A stretch of 64,000 nt of DNA, from NCBI GenBank assembly GCA_964020155.1, contig OZ026549.1, positions 4,139,219-4,203,218 of the forward strand. Reading direction: 5' to 3'. A program made the translations under genes and the position numbers. The notes beneath the pieces are model-generated. The model was not told the origin of the DNA, searched no databases, and saw only the letters and a program-made list of their open reading frames with translations. Of this stretch, positions 16,195-61,700 are shown in pieces; within the stretch, counting starts at the first letter, position 1; every line of letters begins with the position of its first letter. The DNA comes from Chondrilla cf. caribensis. Lineage: Eukaryota; Porifera; Demospongiae; Chondrillida; Chondrillidae.

Positions 16195-16700
16195 TGATTT
16201 GGTTTGGACTGATTTCCATCAGCAAACAATTTGCATTTGCATGCAATATAATAATAGTCATAGTAACATCAATACACATGTCTGTACACACTGTACAAGC
16301 CCCCTCAAGTAAAACTTCACTTTACTTAATGAAATGGATAGGATATTGAAAATCTGTTACAAAGGTTGTTAAAGTCCTACAAGTGTGTACCTCATTATCA
16401 AATTTATGAACCACAGGCAGTTATAGTGTTGTTGGTGGAGAGGATGATATTGGAGAGTGCCTTAGTTCTTATACTTCTTGAAAGGTCACAGTAGTTAACC
16501 GGTATGCAGCAGTGTGCAATAAATTGTGAGGCTACAATGGTTCTCTTTGAGTGAAGTGGAATTGCAGGGGCTTATGGAGAAATGAACAGTACATACTACG
16601 TATTACACACACCATGTTTGGTATTATACAGTTGACTGGTATGTGGTACAATATAGCAGCCTTTATGTCACTGGATGAAACTAGGACATCGTAGAACATT
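16195..16700 (+). pseudogene. Collapsed receptor unit U0
   Basis: 16195-16435 duplicates the 5' flank of U1 (about 16790-17018). It is followed by a degenerate signal-peptide exon at 16444-16483 (MILESALVLILL) whose splice donor is lost. The sequence then jumps into DNA matching the 3' flank of complete units (CAGTTGACTGGTATGTGG region near 16630). The body of the gene, from micro-exon to TM exon, is missing. This fits an unequal-crossover or deletion scar at the left edge of the array. Confidence 0.7.
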
Positions 16701-17018
16701 GTTGTTGACAAGTGATAAATAATTGTGCTTGTCACTTAGTTGCATGCTATGGTTGTGTCCCAGTAACAGAGATGGCAAAATTTGGTGAAGACTAATTTCG
16801 ATCAGCAAACAATTTGCATTTGGATGCAATGTAGTAGTCATAGTAACAGCAATACACATGTCAATTAAGACTGTTTGAGCCCCCCCTCAGGTACAACTTC
16901 ACTTTAGCTAATGAAATAGATAATGTTGTTGATACTTTATTGAAATGTTTGTTTAAAGTCCTACAAGTGTGTACCTGATCAGCAGGTTACTGTACCACAG
17001 GCAGTTGTAGTGTTTTTG

Positions 17019-20000
17019 ATGGAGAGGATGATATGGGAGAGTATCTTAGTTCTTGTACTTCTTGTTAGTGGTGAGTTAGAAAGAGAGGATCATTACAACT
17101 GTACACTAATATCACTTTAATAGGTACACACACAATACCACTCACTGTGGAGTGGTGTTGTTGATATACAGAACTTCACACTATCCATACAAGTGGAGTG
17201 GGAACTACTGATGGGGAATACTCAGGTAACAAGATATCTAGGTTTACTGGACATTTCAGAGAGTACACTCTATAGAGTACATACAACTACTGTAGGCTCT
17301 CAGAGTACACACTTCAACGACTACATACAGTGGAAGTCTTACAACCTGTACTGTACACATGTGATTTGGTTTTACATGTATGTAGGGACTCAGTCTCTTA
17401 CTACTACCAATGTGGTCATTGATGGATACACAGTCAGTTCAACCCTCAAATCTCCAGCTACTCTACCACTAGGAACAACTGTTATTCTAGTTTGTAGACT
17501 CAGTGGAATACAAGATGGACTACAGACAAACTATCACTGGACATGTCCAAATGGACCGTGTCAACAAACAGGATATGCTGGGAGGAAGATCAACAACAAT
17601 ATTATAGCTATCAACATAACCTCTACACGTGATGGAGGGACATACACCTGTAATGTCACTACTGAAGGAAGGGAAGCTAGTCAACAGTTCCAGCTGAATG
17701 TTACTGGTCAGTGGTTGTGAGTACTACTAGTACAGTGTGTACATACCCATGGTGATACACTGTTCTACTTCATACTGTGTACTTTAGGTGGGCAAGTTGT
17801 TCACAGTTATGGGAGACTGATATTCAATGAGAGAGTCATCACTGACAAACAACAACTCCAACCACCAAACAATGATAGTGGAGATGGGAGGATTGAGTGT
17901 AGAGTGAGCAGTGGAGGGGCTAGGTTCAACTATTATGGTTTTTATGTATCAATTGGCACTAATGGAGATGTTCATCAGAACATAAGTGGATCTACTGCTA
18001 CTGTAGTCATAAGAGACAGAGCTTTCAACAATTTTGTGAATTTCGAAGGGAACTGTGCTGGTATATACCACCACCTGTTTGTATCTAATGGTGAGCAGTG
18101 CATTGTGTGTGTACAAAAATGTAATACAGTAATAAGTATGCAATGCTTGACATTATACTTGTGTACATACAGTGTTGATTGTAATTAACAAGGCACACTA
18201 CATACATTTAACACATGTGTATGCGAAGGAACAAGCGCCTTCTACGTGTTCCATTCTTTCAAATATTCATCATCCTTGTATTATGAGTGACTCCTAAGTG
18301 AATGACACTGTGTTGATTTCAAGGATAAGTACAATGCTAACATATTCAAACAAATCTGTTTTCACCGTGGAAAGTAGAAGTCATGGGGAAATCTTATGCC
18401 CTTTATGTGGAGACAGGTTCAGAACAACGACGGATACAGCCCATTAGTGGAATTATTGCTGAAAGGCCAGACAAGGAATGGATGATAGAGTGCACTCTAG
18501 ATTCAGTAGAATTACTACATATCTAGATGAAACCGACACAGAGATGACAGGCTATGGGCCTATTTTCTTGACCTTTTCTTCCTATTATCAAAGAATCACA
18601 TTTTCCAAGTGTGAATCAATCGGAAAACTGTGTAGTAAATAGTGACTATAAAGTATACATGGAGCAATAGTGTGTGTGTATGTGTGTCCTATTACTGCAT
18701 GTACATATGGAATACATGAATGTCAAACGCAAGTGCATTATTACTTACAATGAATACTGTGCTATCATAACCATATTATGCACATATGTACGTAGATACT
18801 CTCCCCTGTGTCCTGAGGACTGCTATCATGATAACGTACCAATATGATCATGGTATCATATGTACATCATTCTCATATTAGGTACTCTCCCTGATGTCTC
18901 TATAACTGGTACAACCAGTACTAATACCAGTATCACTGTGAACATTGGTACCATACCTAGTGGTATTGATAGGGTTATCATTGGATATCACAGACTGGAC
19001 CTTGGAGTACCAGTAGTAGGAGAGTATGTGAATAATGATAAGAGATCATCAAGAACATTCTCCTCACTAGTACCTGGTGCTAAGTACAGGATCACAGCAT
19101 GGGGACTTAGTGGAGGTCATGATAGAAGACGAAGTCAGTCACCAGCTGTGAGGGAGGTTACTACAATGGAGAAAAGTGAGTTGATGGGAACTTTACACTA
19201 AACTGTATACACACATTACAATCAGTCAATGTGTACATTATCTGATACTATGTGTGTTGTGTACAGCTCCATCTCCTCCAAGAAACATCACTATTAATAG
19301 AGTGTGTAATGATGGGATTGAACTAAACTGGATACCACCTAGAGAACCCAATGGAGACATACGACATTACGTCATCAAATACACTACACAAGATGGAACA
19401 CAACAAGAGATCAACACTACAAACGACATCAACTGCTACTACTTGATAGGACAGACCTACAACAACATCAGAGTGGTAGCTGTAAACTCAGCTGAAGGTG
19501 GGGAAGGAAGTCAACCTATAACGAGTCCTAGGGCTGGATATCACACTGTAGTGAAGGAGTTGACTAATTAATACAGTTTCACGCATTCCATGTAGTTACT
19601 GTAACGAATATTGTCAACATATGAAGTCTTTGGAGGATATAATATATACATACCTACTGTGATCTATCTTTGCATTGTTTCTGCAATATAAGGAGCTGGC
19701 AATTTGTTCCATTCTTTTTGAATCAGATATCACGGCATTTCCTGTCTAATTCAGCAGTGACATTACAGGCAACTTGCCATTCTCAAAAATTTTGCACAGC
19801 CCACTTAGTACTTTTGTCTGTATTTTGAGAAATGTGTTTTTAAGTTTACTTAATCGTCGTCAGTTACTTTTGCAAATTGTTGCCCTTAATTACTTCTCCT
19901 TGCTTAGCCAACAGTTTGATCCTGACGTCAGTCAGTTTGGCAATTTACTTCTCCTTGTTTAGCTTAGCTAATGATTTGATCCCGCCCAAAAAATGATTTT

Positions 20001-60604: not shown

Positions 60605-61204
60605 TACTTGTTTGGAGAACAGGACATCAACTGGAAGGACTCCTGATTGAATGCCCATGCATTAATAATATTAACAATTATATTAATTTAATATCATGAT
60701 ATTCAATTAAATAGTTGTTGACAATAATGATTAGAATGCATTGTAATAATATGTGACAAGTATGCTAAGCTGATACGAAAGATTGTGTACCTGAGCATTA
60801 ATAATTGCGTGAAGTGGAAATATACTTGTTTCTCAAAAAATACACACTATGTACTACACATACACACATAGTGTTTGGTATAATATGGTATGAGGTACAA
60901 TATAGCAGCCTTCATGTCACTGGATGAAACTAGGACATTGTAGATAGAAACCAGGAACATCAGTACATGGGAGGGTCGGCCATTTTATTAGTGATGTCGC
61001 AATGTGCGACACCATGCAGACATCAAGGGAAGGAGGAACCAGTACTTGTCACATCATGAAGTGAGCAACACTGGTGAATAAATGATACATTTGAGGGATC
61101 CACAACGTTGACAATGTGTTCGCTCACCAACTAACTGTAAATGGAGAACGTCGTGGATGGACAGTCATACCAACTACAATCAGCACCAAATGGGGTAAAT
61201 TATG

Positions 61205-61381
61205 TGAGTGTGTGTGTGCGTGTGCGTATGTGCATGTGTGTGTACATTTGTGTGTGTGTGTGTGTGTGTGTGTGTGTGTGTGTGTGTGTGTGTGTGTGTG
61301 TGTGTGTGTGTGTGTGTGTGTGTGTGTGTGTGTGTGTGTGTGTGTGTGTGTGTGTGTGTGTGTGTGTGTGTGTGTGTGTGT
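61205..61381. repeat. (TG)n microsatellite downstream of U7
   Basis: Long TG tract in the conserved 3' flank, between GGGGTAAATTATGTG and TACATGGAGTCTACTGTGGC. Confidence 0.97.
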
Positions 61382-61700
61382 ACATGGAGTCTACTGTGGC
61401 ATACCCAAATATGGTATACAACAGTGAAGAATCAGTTAGTTCGTATTTAGTGTGGTTTGAATACTTGAAGATCATTTCAATATTCCCATCTTTCCCATCA
61501 TATCTTACAATGTGTCATGTAAATAATATTATGTGTAGAGTTCTCCTAGAGTATATTGGATACAGCGTTGTACTGAAATGAAACACTCTCGTGGTGATGC
61601 AAGCTAGGGTACAACTACATATTGAAGCAGTTAAAAGATAGCCACTCTGCTTATAAATTTCTCACATGAAATGTAGTTACCACATTGACTCAACTACAAT

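Follow-up and report, generated by a model that had tools for sequence, protein, structure and literature searches.

The window described here is a 64,000-nucleotide stretch of the sponge Chondrilla cf. caribensis (C4:4139219-4203218 of a 137-Mb assembly in 37 contigs). It holds a tandem array of seven genes whose predicted products consist of a signal peptide, an Ig domain, a domain with two invariant cysteines (the two-Cys domain), two FN3 domains, a stalk, an optional sushi domain, and a transmembrane (TM) segment followed by a tyrosine-bearing tail. At a probability of roughly 70%, the array belongs to a very large, germline-encoded multigene family, whose members would be single-pass recognition receptors of the cell surface. 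The best reading of this family is a predicted repertoire of activating and inhibitory recognition receptors. In mechanism, the recognition-receptor reading is supported by a diversified segment of the two-Cys domain, by tails with an immunoreceptor tyrosine-based activation motif (ITAM) or a motif resembling the inhibitory counterpart (ITIM), and by a putative Syk-type partner. A preliminary description of the window, made from its letters, overlooked that it holds a small part of the family.

The size of the family was estimated with the two-Cys exon as query, which gives 173 candidates, the best 150 of which were scored. By a manual count of the match rows, these best 150 lie at C4:323-495 kb (28), C4:573-843 kb (42), C4:2.41-3.23 Mb (45), in the window and just right of it (8), at C4:4.455-4.493 Mb (8), elsewhere on C4 (3), and on C2 (8), C6 (7), and C20 (1). 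A second query from the 2.5-Mb subfamily yields 63 rows in the C4:2.41-3.23 Mb cluster, the 45 included. The union of both queries amounts to at least 168 places, some of them partial and a few possibly pieces of one exon, mostly on one chromosome (C4).

All seven paralogs of the window are on the + strand, at Ig-to-Ig distances of 5.3-8.5 kb. The signal, Ig, two-Cys, first FN3 (FN1), second FN3 (FN2), and TM exons are present in 7/7 units, as judged by tblastn with the exon peptides of unit 1 as queries; the weakest match is that of the 20-residue signal exon, with an E value of 1.8e-5. The gene models are built on splice signals, and the aligned exon junctions are GT-AG and in phase 1. The seven same-orientation paralogs with this exon order, the optional sushi exon, and the array coordinates (16195-61700) given in the preliminary description are thus all borne out, with the addition that the window boundary cuts the array: an eighth unit lies right of it, within C4:4203219-4211218. 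The collapsed remnants of the preliminary description are recovered in part, as two extra signal-exon-like pieces and nothing else at the tblastn thresholds used. The units and pieces are as follows.

16435..16479, + strand: extra signal-exon-like piece (73% identity, tblastn).
17028..21926, + strand: unit 1, 585 aa; signal 17028-17070, Ig 17386-17706, two-Cys 17788-18090, FN1 18882-19175, FN2 19267-19497 (early donor), stalk 20277-20327, sushi 20615-20800, TM/tail 21598-21926.
22871-22930: second extra signal-exon-like piece (tblastn).
23551..28403, + strand: unit 2, 520 aa; signal 23551-23593, Ig 23918-24238, two-Cys 24320-24622, FN1 25905-26198, FN2 26290-26580 (donor within the insert), stalk 27249-27317, TM/tail 28162-28403.
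29496..34531, + strand: unit 3, the most complete, 649 aa, introns all GT-AG; signal 29496-29538, Ig 29856-30176, two-Cys 30254-30556, FN1 32385-32678, FN2 32768-33070, stalk 33139-33174, sushi1 33478-33663, sushi2-like 33876-34052, TM/tail 34245-34531.
36340..40798, + strand: unit 4, broken; frame lost in the Ig exon, in-frame TAG late in FN2, tail stopping short of the ITAM.
42626..48409, + strand: unit 5, 513 aa; signal 42626-42668, Ig 45214-45534, two-Cys 45616-45918, FN1 47043-47336, FN2 47428-47730, stalk 47805-47840, sushi cut short at 48052, TM/tail 48168-48409.
50183..53811, + strand: unit 6, 505 aa; signal 50183-50225, Ig 50537-50857, two-Cys 50939-51241, FN1 51373-51666, FN2 51758-52000 (early donor skipping an in-frame TAG), stalk 52596-52664, TM/tail 53567-53811.
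56411..60604, + strand: unit 7, 596 aa; signal 56411-56453, Ig 56768-57088, two-Cys 57170-57472, FN1 58369-58659, FN2 58754-59053, stalk 59127-59195, sushi2-like 59968-60144, TM/tail 60318-60604.

Six of the seven units are readable as open receptors of 505-649 aa. Units 3, 5, and 7 are open throughout with shared splice sites, and units 1, 2, and 6 are open only with an alternative phase-1 FN2 donor, selected for keeping the frame open. The in-frame donors that leave the frame open are one of four tried in unit 6, two of three in unit 2, and the sole one in unit 1. Units 1 (window 19527-20166), 2, 4, and 6 carry an insert of several hundred bases at the FN2 3' end; it is lacking in units 3, 5, and 7 and may shift the splice donor. 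Units 4 and 6 have an in-frame TAG, which was rejected as proof of death because a phase-1 donor precedes it. Unit 4 is out of frame by a 10-nt deletion in its Ig exon (about 36774-36784). Sushi exons occur in units 1, 3, and 7, and unit 5 has a cut-off piece of one; unit 3 features two sushi-like exons, of which Pfam marks the first alone as Sushi, and unit 7 retains only the second. The intron before the sushi2-like exon carries a 42-nt minisatellite at window 33699-33928 in unit 3 and 59203-60020 in unit 7—about 5 and 19 repeat units, respectively, taking span/42 as length—and the start of the sushi2-like exon resembles, by eye, a variant of the repeat unit.

The ectodomain combines known folds with a part that resembles none of those compared. 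Pfam recognises Ig, fn3, and Sushi on the exons, FN1 being a weak fn3 match (E 0.011 and 0.15). The first domain matches Ig_2 and I-set above cut-off in both exons scanned, its PDB matches include titin, contactin, and DSCAM, and it is on these matches assigned to the Ig superfamily as an I-set-like domain. The two-Cys exon matches no Pfam family above cut-off, its profile matches no PDB structure even at E 10, and comparison with the profile of the Ig exon gives no similarity. An alignment of seven distant members (down to 35% identity) has 14 invariant columns, including the motif HSYGRL and the two cysteines, which are 52 residues apart. The two-Cys (HSYGRL) domain is regarded as a putative new extracellular domain.

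The diversification of the two-Cys domain was judged by codon tests on two sets, which left out the C2, C6, C20, and C4:2.4-3.2 Mb subfamilies and partial rows: a first set of 35 copies in 17 disjoint nearest pairs and a held-out set of 51 further two-Cys exons from C4 clusters in 25 pairs. In the first set, codons 43-70 have an omega of 2.10 (P 2.9e-4). This segment was picked on the same data, and therefore the test was repeated on the held-out exons, where omega is 2.01 (P 1e-6); of the two, the held-out test alone is clean. Codons 1-42 of the first set have an omega of 0.43 (P of deficit 1e-4), codons 71-102 of the held-out set one of 1.01, and the whole exon in the held-out set one of 1.22. 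Windows with a pN/pS above 1 occur inside the Ig, two-Cys, and FN1 exons of the 35 copies. Codons 43-70 also hold most of the length variation, as judged by eye. The pattern would suit a ligand-contact surface. The segment lies in the window as follows.

57295..57378, + strand: diversified segment, codons 43-70, of unit 7 (omega tests).
17913, 24445, 30379, 37211, 45741, and 51064: start of codons 43-70 in units 1-6.

The cytoplasmic tails were read from 70 TM/tail exons, namely 69 of 70 distinct ones (71 rows) and one extra; a match at C4:2852779 is outside this set. One of the 70 is masked, leaving 69 readable tails, 62 of them distinct, and the TM segment was placed by eye. A strict ITAM (YxxL/I-x6-12-YxxL/I) is carried by 44 of the 69 tails (38 of the 62 distinct ones) versus 0.6 of 69 expected by residue shuffling—a share that overstates that of the whole family because the tail query is itself of the ITAM type. 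The spacer is 10 residues in 43 of these 44, and the second tyrosine is 5 residues from the C terminus in all. By type, the motif is present in 16/19 tails of the 2.5-Mb subfamily, 0/6 of type B, and 28/44 of the others; the subfamilies that share it are in most cases 32-41% alike in the two-Cys exon. The tyrosine tail of the preliminary description stands insofar as all units of the window have the tail exon; the description missed the ITAM of units 3 and 7 (2/7) and its loss or alteration in the others. The tail of unit 1 reads YREL-x10-YAAS, the last ITAM position being lost, the tails of units 2, 4, 5, and 6 stop before the motif, and the eighth unit retains it.

34472..34525, + strand: ITAM of unit 3, YQELDVNKMDDTKQYAAI.
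60545..60598, + strand: ITAM of unit 7, YEELDVYKTDDTKQYAAI.

Type B comprises about 20 genes by manual grouping of 38 rows. Its tails carry an ITIM-like motif, VYYSAV or VYYSDV, in 5 of the 6 read; this is a raw count, uncorrected for chance, of a short pattern, [ILVS]xYxx[LIV]. The type-B tails at C4:455-482 kb and 570-662 kb are long and acidic, with many YxxV/I motifs and internal repeats. Two further tail types are found at C4:682-822 kb by eye, in the 2 readable of 5 regions, with LLYTKV in one and IGYQPL in the other. One kind of ectodomain is thus joined to several tail types. The best Pfam match of the TM/tail exon is DAP10 (E 0.021), which is below cut-off and was not used. A receptor tyrosine kinase was considered and rejected: none of the PF07714 matches listed (133 of 1258 candidates scored) is in the C4 clusters, and the tails read by eye contain no kinase domain.

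A search for SH2 domains leads to C17, where two SH2 exons follow one another as N-SH2 and C-SH2. Both have SYK as best PDB match (E 1.8e-18 and 8.1e-26), followed by ZAP-70, which predicts a tandem-SH2 partner of the Syk/ZAP-70 type in the same genome. Kinases of the Syk family occur from sponges to primates, according to the accessible part of PMC9601881. An SHP-2-like SH2 domain was noticed by eye only. Tandem arrays of kinase-domain (PF07714) exons are found at C14:2.02-2.10 Mb, C15:4.25-4.39 Mb, C5:0.15-0.32 Mb, and C3:2.1-2.8 Mb; those on C14 and C15 stand together with SH2 exons. The genome further gives 30 homeodomain matches, some of them partial, which is close to the 31 of Amphimedon and nearly the 35 of Trichoplax, as against 76 in a ctenophore, 127 in Nematostella, and 102-256 in bilaterians (PMC2959044); of these matches, 17 were read, and by eye none is of Hox type. 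Together with the kinase-domain arrays, this count fits a sponge. An approximate silicatein-like DNA pattern gave no match, nor did a search for innexin, which had no positive control.

For a repertoire of activating and inhibitory recognition receptors, the following course is proposed. A ligand would be bound via the diversified surface and cluster the receptors, a Src-type kinase would phosphorylate both ITAM tyrosines, and the Syk-type tandem-SH2 kinase would dock and the cell become activated. Members with ITIM-like or truncated tails would inhibit or serve as decoys. The set would be renewed by tandem duplication, pseudogene formation, domain loss, and tail exchange, as in paired-receptor clusters. 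The ligands could be self, as in allorecognition, or microbial; a role in self/non-self or microbial recognition is inferred. The likeness to recognition-receptor clusters seen in the preliminary description gains from the approximately 168 two-Cys places, the replicated focal diversification, and the ITAM and ITIM-like tails.

Several results weigh against this reading. Pairwise pN/pS over whole exons of the 35 copies is below 1 (Ig 0.63, two-Cys 0.66, and FN1 0.92), whole-exon omega in the disjoint pairs is 0.91, 0.90, and 1.19 for the same exons, and the Ig exon has no significant segment in the 17 disjoint pairs. In the held-out set, codons 71-80 are raised as well (omega 1.86, P 0.018) and codons 1-42 have an omega of 0.75 with a deficit P of 0.064 only; because of these two results, the edges of the diversified segment are not sharp. 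Codons 41-62 of FN1 have an omega of 1.81 (P 0.0084; 17 pairs), in a segment chosen on its own data and unreplicated. The differences counted are between paralogs, not alleles, and pairwise counts can be skewed by gene conversion. An AlphaFold model of the two-Cys exon, built from the seven window copies, has a mean predicted local distance difference test score of 33 and gives no usable fold. The Syk-like gene on C17 is known from its SH2 pair alone, the DNA of the locus being partly N and the kinase half unread. To these may be added the overstated share of ITAM tails, and FN3 and Ig ectodomains also suit adhesion.

A bolder form of the repertoire reading is entertained only tentatively: a sponge counterpart of the NK/LILR paired-receptor systems, in which about 170 germline receptors would present an HSYGRL domain with a hypervariable face, and ITAM-activating, ITIM-inhibitory, and tail-less decoy members would converge on Syk and SHP-2-type enzymes. 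If true, such a system would fill in the receptor side that is still lacking from the picture of self/non-self or microbe recognition in sponges, and ITAM-Syk immune receptor repertoires would then go back to the base of the animals.

Receptors for microbes or symbionts are a possible, if guarded, alternative, with a broad germline repertoire on filtering or wandering cells triggering phagocytosis, as some ITAM receptors do. The very high copy number with birth and death and the termination of the tail in an ITAM speak for it, as does an ITAM-bearing Ig receptor of the oyster, described as recognising bacteria in the available portion of PMC11999971. The receptors have, however, no link to a known pattern-binding fold.

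Allorecognition proper is a rather unlikely account. Here, the receptors, or a few polymorphic members, would bind self-type ligands or each other, and the balance of ITAM and ITIM would decide between fusion and rejection, as proposed for Botryllus. The diversified codons 43-70 and the activating and inhibitory-like tails on one ectodomain agree with it, and Botryllus FcoR and the Hydractinia candidates are reported with such motifs (PMC12065747, in the part available). Yet, the approximately 168 places far exceed the about 40 Hydractinia genes and are more like a broad repertoire, and the domain order differs.

The order of Ig and FN3 domains is typical of IgCAMs, and tissue adhesion molecules of this kind, which would take no part in recognition and use their tyrosine tails for ordinary SH2 adaptors, would agree with the PDB matches of the Ig and FN3 parts, among them titin, contactin, neurofascin, and DSCAM. 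The role of sponge Ig proteins is also given as adhesion and cell–cell recognition in the consulted part of PMC11999971. Nevertheless, this explanation is improbable, the large tandem copy number, the focal omega above 1, and the strict C-terminal ITAM being unexpected of housekeeping adhesion.

It is very improbable that the array consists mostly of decaying duplicates or arose as an artefact in the assembly of one locus: unit 4 is broken, four units have FN2 inserts, introns carry minisatellites, and half of the six readable units depend on a selected donor, but copies lie on four contigs (C4, C2, C6, and C20), and stop codons are found in just 2 of the 150 two-Cys rows and none of the 51 held-out exons. 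A family of mostly pseudogenes is rejected on the 148/150 rows and 51/51 exons without a stop. The artefact, named as a refutation in the preliminary description, is rejected because exons, introns, and inserts vary from unit to unit; locally, the units are about 72-95% identical to unit 1, and the closest two-Cys pairs differ at 10 bases in the set of 35 and 12 in the set of 51.

The family of activating and inhibitory receptors proposed here resembles known paired-receptor families and by domain order belongs to none of those named below. The vertebrate FcgammaRIIA, CEACAM3, and LILR/KIR clusters likewise feature Ig ectodomains, clustered duplication, and activating and inhibitory tails on similar ectodomains. 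The vertebrate single-chain ITAM/ITIM receptors differ in being without the FN3-FN3-sushi stalk and the two-Cys domain and in having far fewer genes. Families of ITAM/ITIM-type receptors have been reported in vertebrates and also in a tunicate and a hydrozoan (PMC12065747); this and the following papers are cited for the portions of their text that were accessible. FcoR of Botryllus schlosseri (fuhc locus) is likewise a large single-pass Ig family with sushi domains and ITIM, hemITAM, or YxxI/L/V tails, with 53 loci (PMC12065747). Its order—variable-type Ig, sushi, two C2-type Ig, TM—is not that of the sponge units, which have Ig, two-Cys, FN3, FN3, optional sushi, TM. The sponge family further differs from FcoR by a full ITAM and about three times as many places; no search for a fester partner gene was made. 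Hydractinia Alr comprises about 40 Ig receptor genes in a cluster on one chromosome, with ITAM/ITIM-type motifs on candidates (PMC12065747, PMC11999971, PMC11876637), but FN3, sushi, and two-Cys domains are not mentioned for Alr in the accessible text. Its Ig-only ectodomain (V-set and I-set, as defined in reviews) contrasts with the FN3 and sushi domains found here. Oyster CgIgIT2, an Ig receptor that has an ITAM of its own and recognises bacteria, differs by having five Ig domains and is described as one molecule (PMC11999971).

Among sponge genes, an immune survey lists combinations of FN3, sushi, and Ig (Ig-TIR, SRCR-FN3, and FN3 plus sushi transcripts), with no ITAM-bearing Ig family among them in the part available; FN3-sushi and Ig genes respond to microbial cues (PMC6208332). 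The ITAM is mentioned once in the accessible text of PMC11999971, for the oyster Ig receptor, and is absent from the main text of PMC12723187, and both ITAM and ITIM are absent from that of PMC11876637. Searches of the open-access literature aimed at this question, as judged by titles or the beginnings of abstracts, listed no sponge ITAM receptor family, which is not proof of absence from print. Their outcome likewise agrees with the remark in the preliminary description that no described family has exactly this order. A 2025 review calls the mechanisms of invertebrate allorecognition a complete mystery, the sponge, cnidarian, and ascidian candidates being without conservation (PMC12065747). 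A sponge family of such size, with an ITAM and a diversifying domain, would provide candidate receptors with a ready-made signalling route, and self/non-self or symbiont recognition in sponges would become directly testable. The family would also define a new extracellular domain. The sponge allorecognition candidate usually discussed is reportedly, after Grice et al. 2017, the extracellular aggregation factor.

A relative on C6 (C6:4901001-4906500) has additional FN3 and a Calx-beta-like exon downstream; the latter match is below the Pfam cut-off (1.6e-4), and the queried piece had three mistyped residues. Between two family members, C4:485001-488600 contains a long minisatellite (LQGELWGRS repeat) that is open in several frames. 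Other dense FN3 arrays are found at C7:3.50-3.63 Mb, C17:3.43-3.57 Mb, C6:2.65-3.04 Mb, and C18:3.08-3.16 Mb. The flanking genes in the window are as follows.

1505-4345, - strand: VWA_4 in two adjoining open reading frames.
7159-8016, + strand: RIIa-domain protein with repeats.
8919-9890, - strand: acetyltransferase with two GNAT matches.
12908-13462, + strand: open reading frame with a PNMA match below cut-off.

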